Of a stretch of 21,136 nucleotides of DNA, positions 1-21,136 are shown piece after piece. Numbering within the stretch: the first letter of the stretch is position 1; the number at the start of each line of letters is the position of its first letter. The DNA comes from a virus. Where the stretch lies: positions 1-21,136 of IMG/VR virus record IMGVR_UViG_3300032238_001345, one strand, 5' to 3'. The notes beneath the pieces were generated by a model. It worked only from the letters and a program-made list of their open reading frames with translations, had not been told where the DNA came from and made no database searches. A program made the position numbers and the translations under genes.

Positions 1-675
1 CAACCAACACCTGTTAGCGGTGTTACTGCGTCTGTTGGTTTTTTTAGGTCAACGGCACTTACAGAAAGTTCATTTATTCAAATTGCGCAAAGGGTATCCA
101 CTAATCAAACTTTTGCTACTGGAGATGCCGCAACAACTTGGTTAAACGCAAATGGGTATTGGACTTCATGGGTGACACCCTATGTTGCAGGTTTATTTAA
201 AACAACCTACTCTGGATATTTTGCCGATAACGTTAGCTTCTTTGCTACCGCAACTCCACAGGCATTTGGAACAAATCCGATAACATCAGTACAAACAACT
301 TCTATATTTGAACCAGCTACTGACGATGGAACTAATTTTAGCTGTCAATGGTTAGGATATTTCAAACCAACAACTACCGAAACTTATACTTTTTTCACAT
401 CATCTGATGATGCGTCCTATGTGTGGATAGGTTCAAATGCGCAGACAGGTTTTACCACAGGAAACTCCACAGTTAATAATGGAGGACTTCACGGAACTTT
501 AGAGAAATCTGGCTCAATTGCATTAACTGCTGGAACTTATTATCCGATTCGTATACAATTCGGAGAACAAAGTGGAGGAGACGTACTGACTTTTAGTTAT
601 TCTACTCCGACTATAACTAAAACAACTAACGTCACTGGATTAGTTTTCTATAATTCAACAACCAACGGCTTCTAA
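1..675 (+). CDS. Tail fibre / adhesin-like protein with PA14/GLEYA-type domain, 5' partial
   Basis: Frame 1 is open from the first base to the TAA at 673-675, giving 224 visible residues; the true start lies left of the window, so the internal GTG at 172 should not be taken as the start. Roughly residues 70-215 resemble a PA14/GLEYA carbohydrate-binding beta-sandwich: a WLGYFKP turn, TYTFFTSSDDASYVWIG with the paired Asp, an NGGLHG turn, then AGTYYPIRIQFGE and GGDVLTFSYS. Upstream, the stretch with TTWLNANGYWTSW looks like a fibre-type repeat. In phages such a C-terminal domain usually sits at the distal end of a tail fibre and binds host surface glycan; that role is inferred. The Ser/Thr/Gly-rich composition without Cys pairs fits an extracellular virion protein. 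Its 3' end overlaps the convergent gene by 21 bp. Confidence 0.7.
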   Translation, partial: QPTPVSGVTASVGFFRSTALTESSFIQIAQRVSTNQTFATGDAATTWLNANGYWTSWVTPYVAGLFKTTYSGYFADNVSFFATATPQAFGTNPITSVQTTSIFEPATDDGTNFSCQWLGYFKPTTTETYTFFTSSDDASYVWIGSNAQTGFTTGNSTVNNGGLHGTLEKSGSIALTAGTYYPIRIQFGEQSGGDVLTFSYSTPTITKTTNVTGLVFYNSTTNGF

Positions 676-1161
676 TATAAGATTTTGTTTAAAAAATATT
701 CTTTCTTTACTACCAACCGTTTGTTTATACCACAAACCTTTATCATCCATCCATACGTATGGGTCGTTAGGGTCTTCAGTCCAACCGTGTTTTGAATAAT
801 ACTCAGAATCTTTACGTAAAAGATTGGCTTTATGTGAAGAGTGGAATTCCTCAGTACCCAACCAATGAGGTAAAACAAATTCACCTTCAATATGTTCGTG
901 AACCATTGTGTTTTTAAAACCACGTTCAACCCAAACATCGATACTATCGTTGTAGTATTGTTTAAGTGCATTTACATAATCTCTCCACATTACAGAACAA
1001 GGGTGAGATGTCCAACCTTTATATGGTTGACCGTTCTTTTTTGGTCTACCTGTAATTGCTGATATAATCTGATATGCCTCCACTCGTTGTTTACCAAGAC
1101 GTTTATTATCTAGACTTTCTAATGACTTTCTAAAATCTGTGTACGGAAGGAAGGTTTGCAT
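655..1161 (-). CDS. Pyrimidine dimer DNA glycosylase-like protein (Pyr_excise / MSMEG_6728-type)
   Basis: 168 aa. The N-terminus MQTFLPYTDFRKSLESLDNK followed by RLGKQRVEAYQI is the hallmark of the small Pyr_excise-related family often annotated as pyrimidine-dimer glycosylase or endonuclease V. The middle holds WTSHPCSVMWRDYVNALKQY, which matches the conserved HP-x-x-x-MW region of that family. The likely role is base excision of UV damage on phage DNA, as DenV does in T4. The classical DenV nucleophile Thr-2 is absent (residue 2 is Gln), so activity is not assured. ATG at 1161 is preceded by an A/T-rich leader with no Shine-Dalgarno. A TATCTTTG box lies at 1194-1201 on its strand, without a clear -33 element. 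Confidence 0.65.
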   Translation of the reverse strand: MQTFLPYTDFRKSLESLDNKRLGKQRVEAYQIISAITGRPKKNGQPYKGWTSHPCSVMWRDYVNALKQYYNDSIDVWVERGFKNTMVHEHIEGEFVLPHWLGTEEFHSSHKANLLRKDSEYYSKHGWTEDPNDPYVWMDDKGLWYKQTVGSKERIFFKQNLILEAVGC

Positions 1162-1229: not shown

Positions 1230-1493
1230 ATGAAAAGAATAATTAGATTAACGGAATCCGATTTGGCTCGTATCGTAAAAAGAGTTATCAGAGAACAAAA
1301 AGAAGTTTCAGAAGAGGAAGAAGAAGTTGTGGTTAGTGTTGATGACATCGCTCAAGAAGATATACAATGTTTTTCTGACGTAGCAACACCTCCTGGTAAA
1401 AAAGGTAAGTATAAAGTTAAGAAAAAAGGTTGTATGACCAAAACAAGATACAAAGGACCAAAACAAAAATATTACGGAAACAACGGTTTCTAA
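1230..1493 (+). CDS. Small basic/acidic protein with leader ending in VIRE-Q; candidate packaged head protein
   Basis: 87 aa, no family recognised. Residues 3-23 form an amphipathic helix, II-RLTESDLARIVKRVIRE-Q, ending at E22. That end matches the (I/L)-x-E rule for T4-type prohead protease cleavage. The sequence then runs into an acidic patch (residues 24-35, Glu-rich) and a Lys-rich C-terminus (GKKGKYKVKKKGC, KGPKQKYY) with two Cys. If cleaved, the mature product would be about 65 aa. The leader aligns without gaps to residues 18-37 of the protein encoded at 10791-11441 and resembles the start of the product of 1624-2073. Function is unknown; delivery with the DNA is a hypothesis. A strong terminator follows directly. 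Confidence 0.7.
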   Translation: MKRIIRLTESDLARIVKRVIREQKEVSEEEEEVVVSVDDIAQEDIQCFSDVATPPGKKGKYKVKKKGCMTKTRYKGPKQKYYGNNGF

Positions 1494-1623: not shown

Positions 1624-2073
1624 CTACCAAGTAATTTCAATTTTGTCATCTTTAATAGTCGCGATATCTCGCTTTTTAGTTATGTTTGATGCTTTGTTCA
1701 AACAGTCCTTAATTTTTATTCTTTCTTTAGCATCACTATTACCAAAGAATGCATAACCATCTGTAATTGCATTATTGATAGTATACTCTAAAAACCCTCC
1801 ACCTGCGCCATTATTACGTCGCTCTAGTTCATTATCTAACTCATAAAGCTCAGAATATGTTTTACACTTACAAATAGCCTTTACAAAAGCATCCTCATCA
1901 GTATTAAATACACCCATAGATTTATCAATCTCGTCTGCAATTTTACTTATTTTTTTCAAATCTGGTTCAGGTGTAATCTGTTCAGGTGTGGTAAGTTCCT
2001 CGTTAATAGTTTTTTTGTACATTGAAAGTATTATACCTTTTTCAGATTCACTTAATATAATTTTTCTGTTCAT
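1624..2073 (-). CDS. 149-aa protein with leader ending in TINE-E, inserted between two tmRNA 3' ends
   Basis: Residues 1-25 (MNRKIILSESEKGIILSMYK then KTINE) resemble the leader of the neighbouring 87-aa protein and end in I-N-E, the same tripeptide as the predicted cleavage site of the capsid protein here. After a Pro/Glu/Thr-rich linker, residues about 56-105 read NTDEDAFVKAICKCKTYSEL followed by YELDNELERR and LEYTINNAI. This is reminiscent of annexin-type helical repeats (GTDEDAI...L...) seen in some phage proteins, but the likeness is weak. No catalytic motif was seen. The gene sits alone between the intact tmRNA with its terminator and the duplicated tmRNA end, and has its own TATATTTAT-type element. 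Function unknown. Confidence 0.7.
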   Translation of the reverse strand: MNRKIILSESEKGIILSMYKKTINEELTTPEQITPEPDLKKISKIADEIDKSMGVFNTDEDAFVKAICKCKTYSELYELDNELERRNNGAGGGFLEYTINNAITDGYAFFGNSDAKERIKIKDCLNKASNITKKRDIATIKDDKIEITW

Positions 2074-2616: not shown

Positions 2617-3762
2617 ATGAAAAAAATCTTAAAAATTTTTGAGCAAGAAGAAGAGAAGGAATTAACCGACTACGAAAAAATTCTTGCTCTTAACAAAAGA
2701 AAGATTGACCCATATGATACTGATTTTGATGGGTGTGATGGAGAAGATTATTCGGACTATTATGAGGTAGGTTATGATGGTATAACTTTCACTTTTCATG
2801 ATGGATTAGAAGAATACCTAAGATTTTTTTTCAAAGAAGCTTATGGTGATGAAGGTACAGATGCTTGGTATGAAGCAGGATATCTTGATTCTATGCGTAG
2901 AGGTCGATGGGAATGGGATACTTGGGATAGAGCAAGTGAAGATTGGGATGAAGGGTATACAATTGAATCAATAAAAGGTGAACCATTAAAACTTTTATAT
3001 GAGATATTAAAAAAATATCAACCACACTTATTAAATTCTTTTGAGGTTATTGATAACGAAGTTCGATGGAAAGATGGTAAAGAAACGGATAAAATATGTG
3101 ATTTTATTGAATCTGTAAGTAGAAGTGCAAAGGATGATTTAATAGATGCTTATGCATATGCAAATGATAGTGCAACAGATGCTGCAGTACCAGGATATAT
3201 TGATAAAATATATTGTAATTGTTTATCTGTTATTGGTATTGAAAACCAATCAAAAAATTGTTATTGGAAATATTATTTAAGTTGGGGTGATGCCGTTATG
3301 TTATTTGTAAGATATGGAACCCCTGAAGATTGCTTGATGGACATAATGTTTAAAGCAATAGAAAAAGAAGTTACAAAACATACTCCAGAGTATTATGAAA
3401 TTCAATACGAAGCTTGGAACAGAGATGTATTTTACGAAGAATTTAATAAAAGAAGTATTAGAGTTTTAGAAAGTTTAATGGAAGAGTTAGACGATATGGT
3501 CGAAGAAGGTGGTGAAGAAAAAATGAAAAAATATTTTCAAATTTTAAACACACTAAGTGAAAAAACAGGATTTAATACAAATAAAAAAATTCCAGGTGGA
3601 TATGAAATTAGAGTATTTGATGTTGATAAGGATAGTTTAATGGTTAATTATGGTTTACGTAAAACCGACAAATGGGGAGAACCATTTAAAAAAGGGTCCG
3701 CCCCATTGAGTCGTATCTTAAACATGTTGGTGACTCCACCACTCGTTCCTTATATTGATTAA
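2617..3762 (+). CDS. Acidic 381-aa protein of unknown function; short leader MKKILKIFE-Q
   Basis: No family recognised. The first nine residues, MKKILKIFE, then QEEEKE, resemble the roughly 10-residue propeptide of T4 internal head proteins (MKTYQEFIAE): a basic/hydrophobic start ending in I-x-E. The rest is strongly acidic and aromatic, with a Trp/Asp-rich stretch near residues 90-115 (GRWEWDTWDRASEDWDEG). The middle is helical and Cys-containing (YCNCLSVIGI, NCYWKYY), and there is an acidic helix MEELDDMVEEGGEEK near 288. No signal peptide or membrane segment is visible. The start is the ATG directly behind a TATATTTAT element. The gene converges on the peptidase gene with stops overlapping in TTAA (3759-3762). 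Confidence 0.75.
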   Translation: MKKILKIFEQEEEKELTDYEKILALNKRKIDPYDTDFDGCDGEDYSDYYEVGYDGITFTFHDGLEEYLRFFFKEAYGDEGTDAWYEAGYLDSMRRGRWEWDTWDRASEDWDEGYTIESIKGEPLKLLYEILKKYQPHLLNSFEVIDNEVRWKDGKETDKICDFIESVSRSAKDDLIDAYAYANDSATDAAVPGYIDKIYCNCLSVIGIENQSKNCYWKYYLSWGDAVMLFVRYGTPEDCLMDIMFKAIEKEVTKHTPEYYEIQYEAWNRDVFYEEFNKRSIRVLESLMEELDDMVEEGGEEKMKKYFQILNTLSEKTGFNTNKKIPGGYEIRVFDVDKDSLMVNYGLRKTDKWGEPFKKGSAPLSRILNMLVTPPLVPYID

Positions 3763-4863: not shown

Positions 4864-6900
4864 TTATTTCTTTCTTTTTATAGGTTTTTTTATTTTAACG
4901 TCAGTTTTCTTTTCTTTGTCGTTATAGGTAAGAATAAATTTAGAACCTTTTTCAGGGTTGTCAGTTAAAATCTTTTCTGTAATAGCATCATCCACCCACT
5001 TCTGAACCGTTCTTTTCAAAATACGTGCTCCAAATCTTGTGTCTGTCCCAACCTCGATTAAGTGTTTTTTCAAAGTATCATCAACATCAACACTATATTC
5101 TAATTTTTCAATTCTTTCATAGAATTTATTTAACTCTAAATCAACAATTTTTAATAAATCATCTTTGTTCAAATCTTTGAAATAAACGATGTCGTCAAAA
5201 CGATTGATAAATTCAGGTGCAAACTTTTTGAATAATTCTTTTTCTAATAAAGATTTAATTTCTTCATCTTTTCTTTCGGTTTTATTTGATGTGGAAAATC
5301 CAACACCGGTACCAAAATCCTGAACTACTTTTGTACCTACGTTTGATGTCATCAAAATGATACAATTTTTGAAATTGATTTTTCTTCCGTGCCCATCAGT
5401 CAACATACCTTCATCTAACATTTGTAAAAATACATTAAAGATTTCAGGGTGAGCCTTTTCAATTTCATCTAACAAAATTACAGAGTAAGGTTTGTTTTTA
5501 ATTTTGTTTAAGAAAGGTGAACCTTCTTCATAACCAACATAACCTGGTGATGTTCCTGTTAATTTTGATGTTGAGATTTTATCAGAGAATTCACTCATGT
5601 CTAATCTGATAAGTGCGTCTTCACTATTGAACATATGTTTTGCCAATTGTTTTGCCAACTCGGTTTTACCAACACCTGAGTTACCAATTAACAATCCACT
5701 AAAGATTGGTTTTTTAGGGTCATTAAGTCCAACACGATTTCTTTGAATTGCTCTTGCAATTTTTGCTACTGCATCATCCTGACCAATTACTCTTGTTGAT
5801 AAAGTATCTTTTAATGTAATAAGTTGTGAAGTCTCATCAGTAGTAATCTTATTGATTGGAATTTTTGTCATTAAAGAAACAACATCATAAACCACATCTT
5901 CAGTTACTTCACGTCTATATAAATCTCTATTTTGTTCAAACTTTTGTTTTTCGTTTTCAAGTTCGGCTAAAACCTTTCTTTCTTTATCGCGAAGGTTTGC
6001 TGCTTCCTCATATTTTTGTTTGTTGATAACATCAACTTTTTCTTCTTTGATTTTGGCTGCTTCTTTTTTAAGGTTTTCAATAATCTCAGGTAGTTTAATT
6101 TCTACTTGTGAACGAGCACCAACCTCATCGATAATATCAAAAGCCTTGTCAGGAAACTCACGGTCAGTAATATATCTATCTGCCAATTCAACACATAGTT
6201 TTAATATATCATCACTATAACTTACTTTATGATGATTTTCATAACGGTCTTTTGAGTTCTGTAAGATTTGTAAAGTTTCTTCTTTAGTTGATGGGTCTAC
6301 AACTACTTTTTGAAAACGTCTTTCTAACGCCCCATCCTTTTCAATATTTTTACGATATTCCTCTAATGTGGTTGCACCAATACATTGTAATTCACCACGA
6401 GATAATGCCGGTTTGAAGATGTTAGATGCATCCATAGAACCTGATGAATTACCCGCACCAATCATAGTATGGATTTCATCAATAAAGACAATGATGTCAG
6501 GATGATTATAAAGTTCTTCCATAATCACTTTCATACGTTCTTCAAACTGACCACGATATTTTGTTCCCGCTACCACAGAAGTCATATCTAAAGAAACAAT
6601 TCTTTTACCTGCCAAATTTTGTGGACAATCACCTTCAAATATTTTTTTAGCTAAACCTTCGACAATTGCAGTTTTACCACAACCAGGTTCCCCAATAATA
6701 ATTGGGTTATTTTTCTTTCTACGAGAAAGAATTTGTGCGATACGATTAATTTCATTTTCCCTACCAATTACAGGGTCAAGTTTACCGTCTTCTGCCGCCT
6801 TAATTAAGTCACGAGAAAAGTTATCTAATACTGGTGTTTTTGATGTACCGTCTTGAGTTTTGTTTTTTGGTTTTTCGTTTCCGTCTACTGAGTCAATCAT
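4864..6900 (-). CDS. clpC: ClpC-like double AAA+ unfoldase lacking the N-terminal domain
   Basis: 678 aa. D1: Walker A GEPGCGKT (70-77), pore loop KYRG (115-118), Walker B VFIDE (138-142), Arg fingers ALERRF (191-196). A short middle segment with a UVR-like motif KQKYEEAANLRD (294-305) marks it as ClpC rather than ClpA. D2: GNSGVGKT (406-413), pore loop GYVGYEEG (453-460), LLDE (476-479), sensor TSN (518-520), sensor-2 region FGARILKR. Residues 533-535 are VGF in the position of the IGF/IGL ClpP-docking loop, so docking to host ClpP is plausible. Typical ClpC is over 800 aa. The Clp_N repeat domain, where adaptors bind, is absent, and the protein begins in the linker (TPVLDNFSRDL). Start ATG at 6900 lies 15 nt after a host-type -7 box. 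Confidence 0.93.
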   Translation of the reverse strand: MIDSVDGNEKPKNKTQDGTSKTPVLDNFSRDLIKAAEDGKLDPVIGRENEINRIAQILSRRKKNNPIIIGEPGCGKTAIVEGLAKKIFEGDCPQNLAGKRIVSLDMTSVVAGTKYRGQFEERMKVIMEELYNHPDIIVFIDEIHTMIGAGNSSGSMDASNIFKPALSRGELQCIGATTLEEYRKNIEKDGALERRFQKVVVDPSTKEETLQILQNSKDRYENHHKVSYSDDILKLCVELADRYITDREFPDKAFDIIDEVGARSQVEIKLPEIIENLKKEAAKIKEEKVDVINKQKYEEAANLRDKERKVLAELENEKQKFEQNRDLYRREVTEDVVYDVVSLMTKIPINKITTDETSQLITLKDTLSTRVIGQDDAVAKIARAIQRNRVGLNDPKKPIFSGLLIGNSGVGKTELAKQLAKHMFNSEDALIRLDMSEFSDKISTSKLTGTSPGYVGYEEGSPFLNKIKNKPYSVILLDEIEKAHPEIFNVFLQMLDEGMLTDGHGRKINFKNCIILMTSNVGTKVVQDFGTGVGFSTSNKTERKDEEIKSLLEKELFKKFAPEFINRFDDIVYFKDLNKDDLLKIVDLELNKFYERIEKLEYSVDVDDTLKKHLIEVGTDTRFGARILKRTVQKWVDDAITEKILTDNPEKGSKFILTYNDKEKKTDVKIKKPIKRKK

Positions 6901-10400: not shown

Positions 10401-10801
10401 ATTTAGTTTTTATAAACGAATTAGGTCCAAACTTTAGAGGAGATAATATTTACGAATTTATTTTTTCTGATTTGGATGATGTTTATGGTGAAGATTGGGA
10501 TAGTGAAACAGCAAACGGAAAACCAACACCGCCACATGTGGAATTTATTAAAAAGGTTGGTGTATTAAAAAATTCTGAAATAGAATTAGATTTAATTCAA
10601 AATTCAGACTTTTTTGGAATGTATGATGCTATCGATGGTGTAATTGCTTTAGGTTGGGAAAAACCTGACAATTACGAAGGAAAAAGATTAGTTTTTCAAT
10701 ATGGAGAAAGTATTGAAATTGTAGAAAATAAATTATACGAAAAAGACATCGTATTAAAATGGGAAAAAAATTTAGTAAGTGATGAAACATATGAATCCTA
10801 A
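10397..10801 (+). CDS. 134-aa protein of unknown function
   Basis: Acidic protein starting MNLVFINELGPNFRGDNIYE, with VYGEDWDSETANGKPTPPHVEF in the middle and a DGVIALGWEKPDNYEG motif. No family or motif recognised. The ATGA overlap with the upstream gene and an 11-20-bp overlap with the downstream one show it belongs to the same translational unit as the terminase genes. Such tight packing next to terL makes a small terminase or neck-linked role conceivable, but there is no helix-turn-helix or coiled-coil pattern to support a small terminase. Confidence 0.65.
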   Translation: MNLVFINELGPNFRGDNIYEFIFSDLDDVYGEDWDSETANGKPTPPHVEFIKKVGVLKNSEIELDLIQNSDFFGMYDAIDGVIALGWEKPDNYEGKRLVFQYGESIEIVENKLYEKDIVLKWEKNLVSDETYES

Positions 10802-11441
10802 AATAGTTAAACTTCTTCATGAGGGGTTTTCAATGAATACTTTAGAAAACTTAACTGAAAATCAATTAAGTGTATTATTTAATAAAATTGTTTCAGAACA
10901 ACCTAAACCGGTTGAAAAAAATGTAACGTCAAAAGTTATTGAACTTCCTGCTGGTGCAAAAACCGCTATTGGAGGGGCAACAGTTTCTAATGATGGTGGT
11001 AAAACTGTGATTACACAAACACAAACTGAAGGTGAATTTACTGAAGGTGAAGAGGAAGATGTAACCAACGTTAATAAAGGTGAGGACGACCAAGACCCAA
11101 TTCAAAAAAAAGGTCCTGACGGTATGCCGGCAGAATCTAATTTACAAGAAAAGTCCGTTTCAAAACAACAACAAAAAATTATGGGATTAGCTCTTTCAGT
11201 TAAAAGAGGTGATACTCCTAAATCAAAAGTTTCTAAAAAAGTTCAAGACATGGCAAAAGAAATGTCTAAAAAAGACTTAAAAGACTTTGCGTCGACAAAA
11301 CACAAAGGTTTACCTAAAACAGTTGATGAAAAAAATGAAGTAGAAAAGTTAGAAGAAGGTATTTTAAGAATAATTGAAAATCATTTACCTCCTCACACTA
11401 CAAAAAGTGAATTACTAAATTACATTAGAAGAAACAAATAA
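10782..11441 (+). CDS. 219-aa head-cassette protein with LTEN...VSE-Q leader
   Basis: Possible starts are GTG 10779, ATG 10782 and ATG 10791; ATG 10791 (MNPKIVKLLHEGF) gives the most natural N-terminus. The segment LENLTENQLSVLFNKIVSEQ aligns gap-free with the leader of the 87-aa protein at 1230, keeping L, T, E, L and the terminal E-Q. Next come a small beta-like segment (VIELPAGAKTAIGGATVSND), a Glu/Thr-rich acidic stretch, a Lys-rich stretch near residues 125-175 (SVKRGDTPKSKVSKKVQDMA) and a helical C-terminus (LEEGILRIIENHLPPHTTK). It lies 3 nt upstream of terL. It may be a head-internal or packaging accessory protein; function unknown. Confidence 0.65.
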   Translation: MKHMNPKIVKLLHEGFSMNTLENLTENQLSVLFNKIVSEQPKPVEKNVTSKVIELPAGAKTAIGGATVSNDGGKTVITQTQTEGEFTEGEEEDVTNVNKGEDDQDPIQKKGPDGMPAESNLQEKSVSKQQQKIMGLALSVKRGDTPKSKVSKKVQDMAKEMSKKDLKDFASTKHKGLPKTVDEKNEVEKLEEGILRIIENHLPPHTTKSELLNYIRRNK

Positions 11442-11444
11442 TGA

Positions 11445-13220
11445 ATGTCTCTTTCAAAAGAACAAATACTACTGGAATATGCTAAATGTGCTCATGATAC
11501 ACCATATGCACTAAGAACATATTTACAAACCTACGATAATACACAATCAAAATACGTACCGTTAGAATTATTCAATGACCAAGTGACTTTGGTTAAAGAT
11601 TATGATACTTGTGAAGAAAATATCGCACTTAAGTATCGTCAGGCTGGGGTATCAACTGTAACGTCTGCTTGGGCATCAAAAAGATTGGTGTTTGCTAAAA
11701 AATCAAAACCAGAAAAAATCCTAATTATCGCAAACAAACTTGATACTGCCGTCGAGATGGCAAATAAAGTTCGTGCGTTTGTTGAACAATGGCCTAATTG
11801 GTTAGGTGTTGGGTTTTCTCCTGAAAAAAATGCAGCAAGGCACTTTAAATTAACTAATGGTTGTGAGGTAAAGGCAGTTGCAACATCAAAAGATGCGCTT
11901 CGTGGTTATACCCCCACTATTCTTATTTTTGATGAGGCTGCATATATCGATGCAGATGAAGATTTTTGGTCTGCGTGTATGGCGTCCCTTTCAACAGGAG
12001 GTAAAGTTATTGTAATTTCAACACCAAACGGATTCGACCCAATTTATTATTCGATATACAGTCAGGCAGTTAAGGGTATGAATGACTTTAGAATTACGGA
12101 AATGTATTGGTTCCGTGACCCTCGTTATTCTAAGGACTTAAAACTTGTTAAAGTTGAAGACATAATTCACTACATGTTAAATAGGGGTGATTATAGAGAT
12201 GAGGATATAGTATTAGACTATTCAGAGATTAAAGTTACTGATAGGGATTTTGAAGAAATAAAACAAAAAATAGAAAAGGGTTATAAACCCTATTCATCAT
12301 GGTTTGAAGCCATGTCAAAAAAATTAAAGTTTGATAAACGTAAGATTTCACAAGAGTTAGAGTGTAACTTTTTAGGTTCAGGGGATAACGTAATACCACC
12401 TGAAACCATGAAAAAAATTAAAGAAAATTATATCCAAGAACCTGAAAATAAATTTATGGGTGGAGCATTATGGCAATGGAAAGAGCCTATTGCTGGTCAT
12501 AAATATATTATGGGTATTGACGTATCTCGTGGTGATAGTGAAGACTTTACAACTTTTACAATCATTGATTTTGATGATAGAGAGCAAGTATTAGAGTATA
12601 TTGGAAAAGTACCTCCCGACGTAGTTGCGGAAATTGCGTTTAAATGGGCGACTATGTATAACGCCTTTATTGTTACCGATATTACCGGTGGTATGGGTGT
12701 TGCGACATCACGTAAATTACAAGAACTTGGTTATAAAAACCTATATGTCGATGGAATAAATCCCGCCGATAAATGGAAATGGGACCCAAAACAAAATGAT
12801 AAAATTCCTGGAATTAACTTTAATTCAAAAAGGGTTTTAATAGTTCAAGCATTTGAAGAGGCGTTAAGATTTGGTTTTATTATTAGGTCACAAAGATTAT
12901 TTAATGAACTTAACACATTTGTTTATGTGAACGGAAGACCTGACCACCAAAAAGGTCAACATGATGATTTAATTATGGCTATGGCCATGGCTATTTATGT
13001 TGGGGAATCTTCATTTGCAAAATTAGAAAAGGCAACAGAACAAGCAAAGGCGATGATTGAATCTTGGACTACGGAAAAACGGGATTTCAAAGATTCATCG
13101 TCAAATTTTAATCCAGGAATACCAGTAGATATTTATAATCAATATAGGTCGGGAAGTTATCAAACAACAAAGAATGATTATGAAAAGTATTTATGGTTAT
13201 TCGGGGGTAAAAGAGTTTAA
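11445..13220 (+). CDS. terL: Terminase large subunit (T4 gp17-like packaging ATPase-nuclease)
   Basis: 591 aa. ATPase: KYRQAGVST (63-71) in the Walker A position, LIFDEAAYI with D163-E164 (Walker B), and the coupling motif VISTPNG (190-196). Nuclease (RNase H fold): GIDVSRGDSED with D359, VTDITGG with D412, and GQHDDLIMA with D507/D508. Together these are the three-part arrangement of gp17, which packages DNA through the portal and cuts concatemers at headful. The P-loop lacks Lys in the GK[ST] position; K63 at its N-terminal edge may substitute, as in lambda-type terminases. The C-terminal 70 residues after the nuclease (TEQAKAMIESWTTEKRDFK) are polar. It follows the previous stop by 3 nt, with the portal 38 nt downstream. 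Confidence 0.95.
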   Translation: MSLSKEQILLEYAKCAHDTPYALRTYLQTYDNTQSKYVPLELFNDQVTLVKDYDTCEENIALKYRQAGVSTVTSAWASKRLVFAKKSKPEKILIIANKLDTAVEMANKVRAFVEQWPNWLGVGFSPEKNAARHFKLTNGCEVKAVATSKDALRGYTPTILIFDEAAYIDADEDFWSACMASLSTGGKVIVISTPNGFDPIYYSIYSQAVKGMNDFRITEMYWFRDPRYSKDLKLVKVEDIIHYMLNRGDYRDEDIVLDYSEIKVTDRDFEEIKQKIEKGYKPYSSWFEAMSKKLKFDKRKISQELECNFLGSGDNVIPPETMKKIKENYIQEPENKFMGGALWQWKEPIAGHKYIMGIDVSRGDSEDFTTFTIIDFDDREQVLEYIGKVPPDVVAEIAFKWATMYNAFIVTDITGGMGVATSRKLQELGYKNLYVDGINPADKWKWDPKQNDKIPGINFNSKRVLIVQAFEEALRFGFIIRSQRLFNELNTFVYVNGRPDHQKGQHDDLIMAMAMAIYVGESSFAKLEKATEQAKAMIESWTTEKRDFKDSSSNFNPGIPVDIYNQYRSGSYQTTKNDYEKYLWLFGGKRV

Positions 13221-13258: not shown

Positions 13259-15082
13259 ATGGCAGAACAAAAATATACGGTATGGCAAAGATTGGGTAAG
13301 GTTTTTGGACCTAACGCGACTTTAGACCAACAATCTCCCGTTTTTAAGTTTGATAAAAAAGAATTATTAAAAACTACAGATAAAACTGAGTTTGAAAAAG
13401 AAAAACTACAGGCTCAACAAACCATGTACATTGGTAAACAATGGCAAAAAGTTGAGAGTAATTTATATACACAAGCGGTTTATTATGAACCAACTCGTAT
13501 GGCGTCATATTACGATTATGAGTCTATGGAGTATACCCCAGAAATTTCTGCTGCACTTGATATCTATGCTGAAGAATCTACAACACCTGATAAAGATGGA
13601 TACATGTTACAGATTTATTCTGAGTCAAAAAGAATTAAGTCAGTTCTTGCTGACTTATTTAATAATAGATTAGATATAAACACTAACTTACCTATGTGGA
13701 CAAGAAACACTTGTAAGTTTGGTGATAATTTTGTTTATTTAAAACTAGACCCCGAAAAAGGTATTGTTGGTTGTCAACAATTACCAAATATTCAAATTGA
13801 AAGATTAGAAAAAGGGATGAGGTTCCAACCTGATAAGTATTCACAAGAAATGGAAAACGACGCTTTGAAGTTTACTTGGAAAGAAAAGAATATGGAATTC
13901 AACACATGGGAGATTGGTCACTTTAGAATTTTAGGTGATGATAGAAAACTTCCATATGGGACATCTATGTTAGAAAAAGCAAGACGTATTTGGAAGCAAC
14001 TTTTATTATCAGAAGATGCTATGTTAATATATCGTGTATCAAGAGCTCCTGAAAGAAGGGTATTTAAAGTATTCGTCGGAAACATGGATGACAAAGATGT
14101 TGATGCATACGTACAAAGAGTCGCTAGTAAATTTAAAAGAGACCAAATTTCTGACCCACAAACCGGTAATGTTGATATGAGATATAATCAGTTGGCGGTT
14201 GACCAAGATTTCTTTATTCCTGTTCGTGACCCCGCAGCAACAAATCCAATAGAAACTTTACCGGGTGGAACAAACTTGGCGGAGATTGCGGATATTGAGT
14301 ATATCCAAAAGAAACTTGTTACCGCTTTAAGAATACCTAAAGCTTATTTAGGGTTTGAAGAGGCTGTGGGTGATGGTAAAAACTTATCATTATTAGATAT
14401 TAGATTTGCTAGAACAATTAACAGAATTCAAAAATCTATGATTGCCGAACTTAATAAAATTGCAATCATTCATTTATTCTTATTAGGTTTTGAAGATGAG
14501 TTAACAAACTTTACTTTAGGGTTAACTAACCCATCTAAACAATCAGATTTATTAGGTATTGAAGTTTGGAAAGAAAAAATAACTCTTTATAAAGATGCCG
14601 TTGCCGAAATTGCAAATAGTGTGGCACCTGTATCAGCATCTTGGGCTAAGAAACACATTTTAGGATTCTCTGATGAAGAAATTAGATTAGATATCCAACA
14701 ACAAAGAGTAGAAAGGGCGGTAGCCGCTGAATTGGCAAAAACTGCAGAGGTAATTACAAATACAGGTTTATTTGACAATATTGATAAATTGTATGGTAAA
14801 AAAGAAGGTGAAAAACCAGCTGAAGGTGGTGAAGCCGGTGGGGCAACTCCTGATATGGGTGGAGCACCTGATATGGGTGGAGCACCTGATATGGGTGGAG
14901 CACCTGAAGTTCCTGAACCACCTGCGGGAGGTGAAGTTACACCTGAATCTTTTAATAAAGATGACTTAAATTTGTTACTTGAAGAACACCTATTTGGGCA
15001 AAATGATTTTATGAATTTAGGTAAAGGAAGAAATTCACTTGTCGAAATAGATGACAAACTTAAAGATTTATTAAATAGGTAA
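13259..15082 (+). CDS. gp20: Portal vertex protein (T4 gp20-like)
   Basis: 607 aa. Recognised by RMASYYDYESMEYTPEISAA near residue 80, ALDIYAEEST, WEIGHFRILGDDRKLPYGTS and LEKARRIWKQLLLSEDAMLI. The region LVTALRIPKAYLGFEEAVGD, then LDIRFARTINRIQKSM is the typical stem/crown stretch of T4-type portals. It forms the dodecameric ring at the packaging vertex that nucleates head assembly and receives TerL. Beyond residue about 520 there is a low-complexity tail with three PDMGGA repeats and a short acidic helical end (DDLNLLLEEHLFGQNDF), which gp20 of T4 does not have. No TATATTTAT element precedes it in the 38-nt gap after terL, so it is probably co-transcribed. Confidence 0.93.
   Translation: MAEQKYTVWQRLGKVFGPNATLDQQSPVFKFDKKELLKTTDKTEFEKEKLQAQQTMYIGKQWQKVESNLYTQAVYYEPTRMASYYDYESMEYTPEISAALDIYAEESTTPDKDGYMLQIYSESKRIKSVLADLFNNRLDINTNLPMWTRNTCKFGDNFVYLKLDPEKGIVGCQQLPNIQIERLEKGMRFQPDKYSQEMENDALKFTWKEKNMEFNTWEIGHFRILGDDRKLPYGTSMLEKARRIWKQLLLSEDAMLIYRVSRAPERRVFKVFVGNMDDKDVDAYVQRVASKFKRDQISDPQTGNVDMRYNQLAVDQDFFIPVRDPAATNPIETLPGGTNLAEIADIEYIQKKLVTALRIPKAYLGFEEAVGDGKNLSLLDIRFARTINRIQKSMIAELNKIAIIHLFLLGFEDELTNFTLGLTNPSKQSDLLGIEVWKEKITLYKDAVAEIANSVAPVSASWAKKHILGFSDEEIRLDIQQQRVERAVAAELAKTAEVITNTGLFDNIDKLYGKKEGEKPAEGGEAGGATPDMGGAPDMGGAPDMGGAPEVPEPPAGGEVTPESFNKDDLNLLLEEHLFGQNDFMNLGKGRNSLVEIDDKLKDLLNR
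14849..14902 (+). repeat. Three 18-bp tandem repeats in the portal C-terminus
   Basis: CCTGATATGGGTGGAGCA is repeated three times in perfect copy, coding PDMGGA. The perfect identity at the DNA level suggests recent expansion. Confidence 0.85.
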
Positions 15083-16885: not shown

Positions 16886-17599
16886 ATGAAAATATTAGGA
16901 CCTAGTGATACAGGTAAAGGTATATTAGTTGAGTGGGATGCAGGAATTATTAATCCTAACGAACCACGTAATCAAAGTATTATACGTGAATCTTATGGAC
17001 AATTAGAACATTCTAAACCATTTGAATTTTATGCAACTCTTCAAAAGTGGGGTGTTCCAAATAGAAACGGGAGAGTATACCCTGAAAAAATATTAAGAAG
17101 AGAATCTGAAAAATACCAAGATGCCATTAAACGTGGTATGTCTATTTCAGAATTAAATCACCCTGAATCTTCTTTAATTGACCTTGATAGAGTATCTCAC
17201 CTTATTACTGAGATGTGGTGGGAAGGTAATGTATTAATGGGTAAGGTTAAATTATTAACTACACCAGGTTTTCATGAAAGAGGTATTGTATCATCTAAGG
17301 GTGATGTTGCGGCTAACATGATGAGACAAGGTGTTACCATGGGAGTATCTTCTCGTGGTGTTGGTTCATTAGTTAAAAAGGGTGACCAAAACGAAGTTCA
17401 AGATGATTTTGAATTAATTTGTTTTGACCTTGTATCTTCACCATCTACACCTGGAGCGTATCTTTACTTGAATAAAGAAGATAGACCAAGATATGAAGAA
17501 AAATTATCAGAACACGATAATACTTCAGTTAGTAGTGGGGGTGGATTAGAAAAATCTGTTGACTTAATGAAAAGATTGTCCGATTATTTAGGAAAGTAA
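16886..17599 (+). CDS. gp21: Prohead core protease (T4 gp21-like, peptidase U9/S77)
   Basis: 237 aa, close to the usual length. FYATLQKWGVPNRNGRVYPE near residues 49-67, ISELNHPE with H92, and GVTMGVSSRGVGSL with S155/S156 form the herpes-assemblin-like Ser-His core. VQDDFELICFDLVSSPSTPG with D181 is the conserved end of the domain. It cleaves scaffold, capsid precursor and internal proteins after (I/L)-x-E inside the prohead, then is itself degraded. That specificity underlies the cleavage sites proposed elsewhere in this window. The tail after residue 200 (Ser/Gly-rich, then VDLMKRLSDYLGK) is likely processed. Confidence 0.93.
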   Translation: MKILGPSDTGKGILVEWDAGIINPNEPRNQSIIRESYGQLEHSKPFEFYATLQKWGVPNRNGRVYPEKILRRESEKYQDAIKRGMSISELNHPESSLIDLDRVSHLITEMWWEGNVLMGKVKLLTTPGFHERGIVSSKGDVAANMMRQGVTMGVSSRGVGSLVKKGDQNEVQDDFELICFDLVSSPSTPGAYLYLNKEDRPRYEEKLSEHDNTSVSSGGGLEKSVDLMKRLSDYLGK

Positions 17600-17966: not shown

Positions 17967-19496
17967 ATGAGTTTAGAAAAAAACGAAAATTTAGTAGAGA
18001 AAACTTTATTACAAATGAAGTCTATCGAAGAAGCTATTAGCGAAAATGCAAAAGGAATACTTGCTTCTACAATGAAGGAAGAAATCAGTGAACTAGTAAA
18101 AGAGTCATTATTTGGCACAAAAACAAAAAAGTCTTTACGCGAGCAAGAAGAAGATGACACCGAAGAAGTGGTAGGTGTGGAAACTGACACAGAAGTTGCA
18201 GATGATAGTGAAGAGACTACTGACGTTGAAGCGACAGTAAACCCTGAAGGTGGTGACGATGTTACTATTATGGGTGCTGAAGTTAAAACTGATAACGAAG
18301 ACGAATTACCACCTCTTGATATGACAAAGGCTAAGGCTGGCGAAGTATTGAAAGTGTTTAAAGCTATGGGTGATGAGGATGGAATTATTGTGGTTAAAGA
18401 TGATAATAAAATCCACCTTACTGATAAGAACACAGACAATGAATATTTCATTGATTTAGGTGACGATTCAGATTTATCTATGGAACATCCTATGGAAGAT
18501 ATGAATGAGAGTGTAATTTATGAATTAGTCTTCGAAGAAGAAGGTGATATGACAAATTCCGAAATGGATGAATCTTATGACGAAATGGACGAGTCTTACG
18601 ATGAAATGGATGAATCTTACGATGAAATGGATGAATCTTATGACGAAATGGACGAGTCTTATGATGAAATGGATGAAACTATCTACGAATTAGAAGTTAG
18701 CGAGTCTATGAAACCTGTTGGAATGGGATTTGGAAAAATGAAAAACGGTTTATCTAAATCAACTGTTAACAACAAAGGTTTTGATGAAGACATGGAAAAT
18801 GGTCTAAAATCTGAGAAAAAAGGTAAGGGTCCTAAATTCAAATATCCTAAAGTTAAACATGGTGTTACTGAATCCGAAATGGATGAAGAATACATGGATG
18901 AAGAATACATGGACGAAGGATGGATGGATGAAGAAATGATTGATGATATGAAAACTGAATCTGACTACATGGAAGGTGACTACATGGAAGACGACCATAT
19001 GGGTGGTGAGACTACAGAAGCATCAAGAACTATGACTTACAGAAGAAGAGCAGAAAGAGACCGTGTTGCGGCACCTAGTCAATTAAGAAATGAATCAGTT
19101 AAAAAAGAACTTAATTTATTAAGAGAGAAAAACGAAGAATACAAAAAGGCTTTAGATTTCTTTAGAAATAAATTAAATGAAGTTGCAGTATTCAATTCAA
19201 ACTTGGCGTATTCTACTAGATTGTTCACTGAACACTCAACAACAAAACAAGAAAAAATAAACATACTTAGAAGATTTGATAACGTAGAAACAATCAAAGA
19301 ATCTAAGTCACTTTACAAAACAATTAAATCTGAATTAGAAGGAGGAAATAATAGTAATGAAGTTGTAACTGAATCAGTTCAAAGAAAACTTATTAACACA
19401 CCTTCAAATGGTTCAGCATCTAATTTGATTGAAAGTAAAACGTATGAAAATCCACAATTCTTAAGAATGAAAGATTTGATGGGAAAAATTAAATAA
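17967..19496 (+). CDS. gp22: Prohead core scaffold protein (T4 gp22-like position)
   Basis: 509 aa from ATG 17967; the in-frame TTG at 17955 is less likely. Called by synteny (protease - scaffold - capsid) and by composition: acidic, helical, low in aromatics outside the repeat. Residues 1-59 end in KKSLRE, then QEEDD, an L-x-E site like those in the capsid and small proteins. Residues about 200-240 are six copies of a seven-residue unit (MDESYDE), followed by a second Met/Asp/Glu-rich block (EEYMDEEYMDEGWMDEE). The C-terminal third is a long coiled-coil-like helix (KKELNLLREKNEEYKKALDF) ending NPQFLRMKDLMGKIK, the usual place for capsid contact. T4 gp22 is about 270 aa, so this one is enlarged, mainly by acidic repeats. 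Confidence 0.8.
   Translation: MSLEKNENLVEKTLLQMKSIEEAISENAKGILASTMKEEISELVKESLFGTKTKKSLREQEEDDTEEVVGVETDTEVADDSEETTDVEATVNPEGGDDVTIMGAEVKTDNEDELPPLDMTKAKAGEVLKVFKAMGDEDGIIVVKDDNKIHLTDKNTDNEYFIDLGDDSDLSMEHPMEDMNESVIYELVFEEEGDMTNSEMDESYDEMDESYDEMDESYDEMDESYDEMDESYDEMDETIYELEVSESMKPVGMGFGKMKNGLSKSTVNNKGFDEDMENGLKSEKKGKGPKFKYPKVKHGVTESEMDEEYMDEEYMDEGWMDEEMIDDMKTESDYMEGDYMEDDHMGGETTEASRTMTYRRRAERDRVAAPSQLRNESVKKELNLLREKNEEYKKALDFFRNKLNEVAVFNSNLAYSTRLFTEHSTTKQEKINILRRFDNVETIKESKSLYKTIKSELEGGNNSNEVVTESVQRKLINTPSNGSASNLIESKTYENPQFLRMKDLMGKIK
18561..18681 (+). repeat. Six 21-bp in-frame repeats in the scaffold gene (MDESYDE)
   Basis: Unit GAAATGGATGAATCTTATGA with C/T variation. Third-base differences show a 63-bp higher-order period: units 1 and 4 are identical and 2 and 5 nearly so, implying duplication of a three-unit block. 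Confidence 0.85.
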
Positions 19497-19529: not shown

Positions 19530-21136
19530 ATGGGAGCATTATTAGAATCAGGTCTTGTTGGTAACATCGGGTTGAAACACCTTAAAGTTATCAAAGAAGA
19601 TACAATCAACAAATGGGATAAATTAGGATTCCTAGACGGTCTTAAAGGACACATCAAAGAGAACATGGCACAGTTATATGAAAACCAAGCTTCTCACCTA
19701 ATCAACGAAGCATCGTCTACAGATAGTTCAGGTTCTTTCGAAACTGTAGTTTTCCCTATCGTAAGACGTGTATTCTCTAAGTTGTTAGCTAACGATTTAG
19801 TATCTGTACAAGCAATGAACTTACCTATCGGTAAATTGTTCTATTTTGTACCTAAAATCCAAGGTTATGCAACACCAACAGTTTACGATAACCCACACTA
19901 TGCGCCAATTGGAGCTGACGGTGGACCAACTCAAGCACAAGCTCAAGCTGGTTACAGTGCAAACGATAAAAACCTTTACGATAGATTTTATGAAGGTGCT
20001 GAACCTAACTTAGACCCGGCAGGTTTATGGGATTATTCAAAAGGTGCTTACACGGCTATCACTAAAGCTGCTGTAACATATGTTTGGTCTAGCGGTCAAT
20101 TAGTTGAGGGTACTTACACAACAACTAATGGTGGTACTGTAAATGGTGCTACTACAGGTGGTCCTATCCACAGAAAAGTTATCATCGCTCTTTCTGGTTT
20201 CACATCAGGTGGTGCTGGTAAATTAATTGGTCCTGATGGTCAATTAATGGATAACGAAGCATTCTTATCTGATTTGAATGTTTACGCATATGATAATGGT
20301 TCTGCACAAGCGGCGTTCTCAGGTTTAGGTACAACTTCACCATTATTATTTAGAGTTGTTACTCAAAAATATGGTAAAGGTATTGTACAATACGGTACTC
20401 AAACTACTACAACATGGCCTGGTACAGGTAACGGTGGTTCTTATGACAATCTTTGTGATGCAGCTGGTATCATCTACTTAGAAGTAGATACTCAAGTACC
20501 TGCAGCTATCGGAGCCGCATCTTTAGATGGTTACTCAGGATTTACTTTAGGTGCGTCTGCAACACAAACAAACGGACAATTCTACTGTACTTATAGAATC
20601 TACCAAGAATTGGAATTCGAAGACAGAATTGGTGAGGTTTCTTTTGACCTTGAGTCAGTAACTGTATCTGTTACTGAAAGAAAACTAAGAGCACAATGGT
20701 CTCCTGAATTAGCACAAGACGTTTCTGCATTCCACAACATCGATGCTGAAGCTGAATTAACAGCTTTATTATCTGAGCAAGTAGCTGCAGAAATCGACCG
20801 TGAAATTTTACGTGACTTACGTAAAGGTGCGGCTTGGAACTTACGTTGGGATTACAACGGATGGAAAAGAGGTACTTCAGCTAACCCATTAACTCAATAC
20901 ACTCAAAAAGATTGGAACCAAACTTTGATTACTGCAATCAACCAATTGTCAGCACAAATCCACAAATCTACATTAAGAGGTGGAGCTAACTGGATTGTTG
21001 TTTCTTCTGAGGTTTCAGCTATCTTTGACGATTTAGAATACTTCCACGTATCTAACGCGTCTCCTGAGCAAGACCAATACAACATGGGTATTGAAAGAGT
21101 TGGTACATTAGCAGGTCGTTACCAAGTTTACCGTGA
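19530..21136 (+). CDS. gp23: Major capsid protein (T4 gp23-like), 3' partial
   Basis: The frame from ATG 19530 is open to the window end (535 codons, stop not reached). The N-terminal part (MGALLESGLV, KENMAQLYENQASHLINE) is a propeptide. LINE-ASS gives a predicted prohead protease cut after E60, near the T4 position (65). The body shows FETVVFPIVRRVFSKLLAND, LVSVQAMNLPIGKLFYFVPK and VTERKLRAQWSPELAQDVSA, then FHNIDAEAELTALLSEQVAA and REILRDLRKGA. These follow T4 gp23 blocks such as SRKLKAEYSLELAQDLKAIH. GTLAGRYQVYR at the window edge matches LGGKYRVY of gp23. The middle (about 180-330) is Gly/Thr-rich and may hold an insertion. It is co-transcribed with the scaffold, 33 nt downstream, with no terminator between. 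Confidence 0.95.
   Translation, partial: MGALLESGLVGNIGLKHLKVIKEDTINKWDKLGFLDGLKGHIKENMAQLYENQASHLINEASSTDSSGSFETVVFPIVRRVFSKLLANDLVSVQAMNLPIGKLFYFVPKIQGYATPTVYDNPHYAPIGADGGPTQAQAQAGYSANDKNLYDRFYEGAEPNLDPAGLWDYSKGAYTAITKAAVTYVWSSGQLVEGTYTTTNGGTVNGATTGGPIHRKVIIALSGFTSGGAGKLIGPDGQLMDNEAFLSDLNVYAYDNGSAQAAFSGLGTTSPLLFRVVTQKYGKGIVQYGTQTTTTWPGTGNGGSYDNLCDAAGIIYLEVDTQVPAAIGAASLDGYSGFTLGASATQTNGQFYCTYRIYQELEFEDRIGEVSFDLESVTVSVTERKLRAQWSPELAQDVSAFHNIDAEAELTALLSEQVAAEIDREILRDLRKGAAWNLRWDYNGWKRGTSANPLTQYTQKDWNQTLITAINQLSAQIHKSTLRGGANWIVVSSEVSAIFDDLEYFHVSNASPEQDQYNMGIERVGTLAGRYQVYR

Follow-up and report, generated by a model that had tools for sequence, protein, structure and literature searches.

Injected proteins are known for few phages. 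The ip genes of T-even phages were the subject of a 1994 study in EMBO J, the first author of which was reportedly Repoila. According to the available part of PMC12373910, that study listed the genes by their leader and gave at least 10 Ips; the same source states that the leader is the sole common part of Ip1-3 of T4 and that these proteins are injected and proved to be counter-defence or takeover factors. Processing of the T4 CTS is governed by residues 8 and 10 (P3 and P1), the earlier part serving targeting, and T4 propeptides have 10-19 amino acids, of which 10 suffice (PMC9026906, in the part available). Propeptides are also cut from head proteins of SPN3US and phiKZ, after Glu and by a gp21-related protease, and the accessible text on these phages mentions the catalytic triad of the protease and describes gp53 and gp54, which have their first 15 residues in common, as paralogs (PMC5694885).

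The window, meaning the whole stretch of DNA analysed here, is a virus record of 21,136 bases with a T4-like head module. A reading of the sequence alone had proposed that otherwise unrelated proteins of this phage carry a common N-terminal leader that ends in a protease site and directs them into the prohead. The gene on which this proposal centred has the following features.

1230..1493, plus strand: gene with the LTESDL leader, product of 87 amino acids
1230..1295, plus strand: leader MKRIIRLTESDLARIVKRVIRE, 22 amino acids, predicted cut between I-R-E and Q

The product begins as had been described, with MKRIIRLTESDLARIVKRVIRE followed by Q, and the recurrence of this start in relatives is much greater than chance would give. 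When viral contigs were scanned with the gene-1230 protein, 109 relatives came up and 80 were retained; in 55 of these 80 the match is confined to residues 1-28 (64-96% identity), which means a conserved start in front of differing remainders. A profile, A1, was built from 32 leaders picked by a pattern that included the leader end. In the fetched loci it gave 283 matches, 279 with Met in place and 202 with distinct first 40 residues, and the 186 of the 202 that were tabulated are those with LTE-like letters at positions 7-9. The distinct leader proteins number 205, and the 204 with a mature part longer than 28 amino acids fall into 130 BLAST clusters, 93 of them singletons. The set of unrelated proteins behind the leader is thus far larger than the sequence-only reading had claimed, and the suggested use of the leader for listing cargo is borne out, the leader profile picking up unrelated proteins. 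The sequence comparisons support a modular N-terminal segment on unrelated proteins that ends exactly at a gp21-type site.

Because the A1 seeds had been chosen by a pattern including their end, the profile was rebuilt from positions 1-18 only. It gave 186 distinct matches, some of them related to each other and so not independent. All have E at position 22 and I, L, V or M at position 20 (186/186 each), 181 have Met at position 1, and the residue at position 21 varies (K, N, S, R, M, Q and others). The information falls from 4.3 bits at position 22 to 1.2 at position 23 and 0.5 at position 26. Judged by sequence, leader positions 20-22 are the P3-P2-P1 of (I/L)-x-E, the T4 gp21 site. The head module of the window contains candidate sites of the same type.

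11445-13220: terminase
13259-15082: portal
16886..17599, plus strand: prohead protease, Peptidase_S77, from Pfam PF03420 and residues in common with T4 gp21
16886..16990, plus strand: N-terminal region of the protease ending in I-R-E before S, candidate site
17967..19496, plus strand: predicted core/scaffold protein
17967..18143, plus strand: N-terminal region of the core protein ending in L-R-E before Q
19530..21136, plus strand: major capsid protein, cut off by the window end
19530..19709, plus strand: N-terminal region of the capsid protein ending in I-N-E before A

The gp21-type protease attributed to this phage is indeed encoded: the match to Peptidase_S77 (PF03420) has an E-value of 8.8e-24 and 84.5 bits against a cut-off of 27. 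Residues H92, S155/S156 and D181 align with T4 gp21, are invariant in 5/5 and are presumably the catalytic His, Ser and Asp. The product of 17967-19496 is probably the core/scaffold protein, given its position between the protease and capsid genes. A pattern search found [IL]-x-E in the N-terminal region of the protease in 29/29 distinct relatives counted. In the core protein [LI]-x-E closes the conserved N-terminal region in 33/33 distinct sequences, with Q next in 30 of the 33, and P2 varies (R, K, H, F, Y, N, E) like P2 of the leader. The distinct capsid N-termini from relatives of the window that passed the filter all have I-N-E before A (5/5). By analogy with T4, the core, protease and capsid proteins would be cut at these [IL]-x-E sites.

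The matches of the window terminase in the phage collection were all below 60% identity (1313/1313). The top record of that collection, with the S77 protease (43%) as well as with the terminase (29%), was Microcystis phage Mel-JY01 (L309), and its capsid and protease N-termini likewise show [IL]-x-E. The hosts can be guessed from MAG titles to be Bacteroidota.

The sequence-only reading had suggested comparing the occurrence of a leader profile with that of gp21. In a sample of 45 leader-bearing viral records, mostly longer ones, S77 was found in 17 and the portal in the same 17, so that all portal-bearing records (17/17) have S77; the capsid protein was found in 16 of them. The 28 records without S77 gave no match to portal or Terminase_6N, both control records being matched, and therefore look like fragments. 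G006 and G017, which are without S77, do match the capsid protein, weakly and in part (35% over 58 residues). Among the examined leader-bearing viral records of at least 200 kb, S77 is present in 14/15; the exception, G004 (214 kb), has leaders and gave no S77, portal or terminase match.

The leader pattern matched 35 stretches of genome contigs, and the 4 loci found to be relatives were all from MAGs. S77 is present in the MAG with L262 and L263, while no S77 match was found in the MAGs of L264 and L265. A bacterial origin of the leader was considered and is not supported; L263 carries a T4-like terminase relative. From the four MAG loci a longer leader with four additional residues emerged, MKKIIRLTESDLHRIVKESVxRILxE, which is read here as a gut/rumen form from the MAG titles (Prevotella). 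A scan with this longer leader gave at least 78 loci, on contigs of up to 412 kb. A profile limited to the first 19 columns of the longer leader yielded 122 distinct gut-form leaders, with E26 in 114 and L, I, M or V at P3 (position 24) in 120, and 119 mature parts gave 82 clusters. All gut-type records of at least 107 kb (18/18) carry leaders, 2-26 each, and S77 was found in 12 of the 18. In 8 of these 12 a leader gene lies at most 2.5 kb from the protease match. Random placement gave a mean expectation of 1.97 records and reached 8 in 0/2000 simulations, a significance that is overstated because leader genes were placed independently and some records share a neighbourhood; leader genes cluster, which makes the placement null a weak one. 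The leader gene begins four bases after the protease gene in G056 and G054. The S77 protease frame of L343:4145-5968 has 607 amino acids, and the portal frame of G001 (162873-165968) has 1034 with the match split in two; inteins in head genes are a possible explanation of both long frames.

Three other genes of the window had been placed beside gene 1230.

1624..2073, minus strand: gene with a leader of another class
1999..2073, minus strand: leader MNRKIILSESEKGIILSMYKKTINE, 25 amino acids, predicted cut between I-N-E and E
2617..3762, plus strand: gene with a leader of 9 amino acids, product of 381 amino acids
2617..2643, plus strand: leader MKKILKIFE, predicted cut between I-F-E and Q
10782..11441, plus strand: DUF3008-bearing protein, upstream of the terminase
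10782..10898, plus strand: possible N-terminal propeptide ending in V-S-E before Q

One kind of junction is common to the four window cases, as had been proposed, but a single homologous leader is not. The start of gene 2617, MKKILKIFE followed by Q, stands as a junction case: in its homologs a Glu is aligned with E9 in 14/14 while the preceding residues drift (MKKILKIFE, MRRKRYILE, MKKRLLVE). The structure model of its product is confident except for residues 1-12, which are of low confidence, which suggests that the leader is not part of the fold; the model gave no PDB fold match at E 0.001. Gene 1624-2073 does begin with MNRKIILSESEKGIILSMYKKTINE followed by E. It has few homologs (3 matches counting the window itself), and by eye its start appears to be of a class, different from the gene-1230 leader, that relatives also have on unrelated proteins. 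Gene 10782 is the weakest of the four cases. Its start has the sequence that had been given, the start region MKHMNPK recurs among homologs, and E-Q lies within the expected stretch in 31 of 45 distinct homolog N-termini (at least one of them a fragment). LTE, however, is found at that place in 5/45, so the alignment with the gene-1230 leader is mostly coincidental and homology of the two starts was rejected.

A tmRNA gene was found at 2149-2547 on the minus strand (Rfam RF00023, 106.7 bits; missed by ARAGORN). The 83 nt at its 3' end (2143-2225) are repeated at 1523-1605 (93%), so that a copy lies on either side of gene 1624-2073, the arrangement that insertion of a cassette at the tmRNA end would leave. 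Also beside the leader genes are a pyrimidine-dimer glycosylase (655-1161, minus strand) and a Clp/ClpB-like AAA ATPase (4864-6900, minus strand).

The same mature part can be found behind different leaders. Homologs of the gene-1230 mature part have the quite different leader MELNRFKQLLESTMGNSKPLISE followed by E in L005, and a leader ending in KPLVNE before D or A in L006 and L007. A protein of 593 amino acids has the LTES leader in L002 and MKNIIITENQLRLLINNSFDLIKE followed by E in L014, with about 60% identity behind the leader, and further swaps separate L252 from L044, L009 from L044 and L077 from L020. The swapped leaders all end in aliphatic-x-E. Matches outside the LTES context were obtained for 43 queries, about 8 of which read as clean swaps, the remaining candidates being paralogs in shifted register, fragments or a domain inside a longer protein. 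Cysteine-bearing stretches, CWAGYTQKGMKTMFGKRYPNCVKK and EKWSEKYKKSIDCNNPKGFSQRAHCQG, recur in several leader proteins and in proteins without the LTES leader (L204:18982-19296, L209:14044-14205, L077:10001-10612).

Leader classes were surveyed with crude gene calling (longest ATG frames). Among genes of at least 90 amino acids, the share with [IVL][IL]xE in the first 26 residues is 21-36% in six long records, the internal windows giving 4-7%. The corresponding values are 13% against 6% in G011, 12 against 5 in immuto, 10 against 5 in T4, 8 against 4 in P-HM1, 7 against 6 in crAss001 and 5 against 6 in phi14:2. N-termini common to non-homologous proteins of one genome at a score of at least 44, in counts that include some signal peptides (internal control in brackets), were found for 62/286 (4) in G005, 53/154 (0) in G007, 46/308 (2) in G001, 46/266 (2) in G002, 25/102 (0) in G014, 15/105 (0) in G009, 18/169 (0) in immuto, 5/191 (2) in T4 and 2/90 (0) in crAss001. 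At this score none were found in G011 (0/92), phi14:2 (0/84) and P-HM1 (0/150), with controls of 0. The T4 pair with MKTYQEFIAE comes up in a looser listing, where it makes up 2 of the 8 T4 proteins in clusters; 4 others are GIY-YIG endonuclease-like. For the cultured Flavobacterium phage immuto the listing gives 27 proteins in clusters, 7 signal-peptide-like and 10 leader-like, with starts such as MENFDLKKFLVENRLTYNSKLINE followed by G and MKKSQLRQIIKE followed by A; the 10 form three groups, and one member lies between the portal and protease genes.

The LTESDL leader itself has a patchy distribution. In a search of 20 records A1 gave matches in 15, 1-16 each, and at E 0.05 none in G013, G016, G018, G019 and immuto. 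G013, G016 and G019 are terminase relatives of the window, and the near relative G011 has 1 A1 match only. A tblastn search of named phages with the 23-residue leader gave no match at E 10. In 7 phage records the best E-values of the leader profile were 0.031 (LR756508, an uncultured phage) and 0.054 (T4), and the other 5 gave none.

Pfam searches of 114 cargo proteins, mostly cluster representatives, gave 23 families, nearly all in a single protein and many weak. The PHROGs search named 49. Most cargos match no family. The clearer assignments are the following.

L006:3893-4507: ECF-type sigma factor (region 2, 8.4e-8; region 4, 3.4e-13), start codon uncertain
L062:9202-9960: phage lysozyme (6.5e-26)
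L070:13140-13706: VanY (3.2e-10)
L017:4567-5502: TseH-like T6SS effector domain (4.2e-14)
L002:11919-13697: peptidoglycan-binding domain (7.4e-13)

An ADP-ribosyltransferase reading of the L265 cargo is a hint only, the match to Tox-ART-HYD1 (E 0.0063) being below the cut-off and the model being poor (pLDDT 38).

The leader is probably a capsid-targeting propeptide, which would be cut by S77 after (I/L)-x-E and leave its cargo in the head. The conserved, amphipathic N-terminal segment (positions 1-19) would bind the prohead core and thereby draw the attached protein into the prohead. The phage S77 protease would then cut after (I/L)-x-E and free the leader, the mature protein would stay in the head, and entry into the host together with the DNA is probable for at least part of the cargo. 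A coding sequence would become cargo on gaining such a leader, which would explain both the unrelated proteins behind one leader and the one protein behind several. Support for this reading lies in the modular leader, the conservation of the peptide, the protease-type junction, the S77 gene, the leader swaps and, for the gut group, the nearness to the protease gene. Against it stand the lack of sequence similarity to the T4 CTS, the uneven presence of leaders among the records, the absence of an S77 match in G004, G006 and G017, and other leader classes on possible tail proteins.

The leaders could instead address another part of the virion (tail, baseplate) or an assembly hub outside the head, with E acting as a helix cap or linker. 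Some of the other leader classes are on large proteins with Ig-like or peptidoglycan-binding domains, possibly tail parts, so some classes may not mark a protein of the head interior. An address of this kind is nevertheless unlikely for the leader, since P2 varies while P3 and P1 are fixed, the junction is the same as the site in the core, protease and capsid proteins, and the leader genes of the gut group lie near the protease gene. A host membrane-binding or sorting helix, or a degradation signal, would agree with the basic, amphipathic-looking leader and with the few cargos that are cell-wall enzymes. It would leave the fixed (I/L)-x-E end, the leader swaps and the nearness to S77 unexplained, sigma factors are also among the cargos, and it is considered very improbable.

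Hardly credible is a recombination cassette of promoter plus start codon, carried along with genes and functionless as a peptide. Of 110 intergenic leader genes, 99 have TATTTAT in the 45 nt preceding them, against 200 of the 499 others (records G001, G002, G005, G007, G009 and G014), as such a cassette would have it. The element is also found upstream of the protease and sheath genes, and of the helicase in 4/4, so it is not specific to late genes. As DNA, 182 of the 186 leaders are distinct, and over random pairs of leaders pS is 0.54 against a pN of 0.18; it is thus the peptide that is conserved while the DNA varies.

A wider reading is slightly favoured, in which several interchangeable aliphatic-x-E leader families load tens of proteins per virion and form an open, combinatorial head-address system. 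If this is true, the cargo would include cell-wall or T6SS-effector-like enzymes and an ECF-type sigma factor that could reprogram host transcription at injection, and the injected proteome of uncultivated T4-like and jumbo phages could be listed from sequence alone. Should the leaders prove to be tags for the head, candidate injected proteins of uncultivated phages could be listed by the hundred with a short profile; most have no known domain, and a role in counter-defence or takeover could then be tested for them. Loading of chosen proteins into such phage heads may be another use of the leader.

The string LTESDL was absent from the literature searched, no report of the leader was recognised in the accessible parts of the literature on capsid targeting, internal proteins and jumbo or Bacteroidetes phages, and no virion proteomics of a cultured relative was found there. 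The propeptides of SPN3US and phiKZ differ from the leader system in protease family and motif, and one leader on many unrelated proteins is not described in the available part of PMC5694885. The logic of the 1994 ip listing, as far as it is given in the citing text, is identical, internal proteins being recognised by a common leader, there in T-even phages. No similarity to MKTYQEFIAE was found, the best T4 match of the profile having an E-value of 0.054 over 9 residues, and the leader is therefore not counted among the homologs of the T4 CTS. Like the T4 CTS of IPI-III, it is N-terminal, is found on unrelated proteins, has (I/L)-x-E before the predicted cut and goes with a gp21-type protease. 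It differs in its length of 22-26 amino acids against 10-19 for T4 propeptides, in the up to 16 or 26 strong leaders per record against three Ips in T4, and in having several leader classes and other cargo. The best reading is thus of a leader system that would work like the T4 CTS, without sequence relation to it and on a far larger scale.
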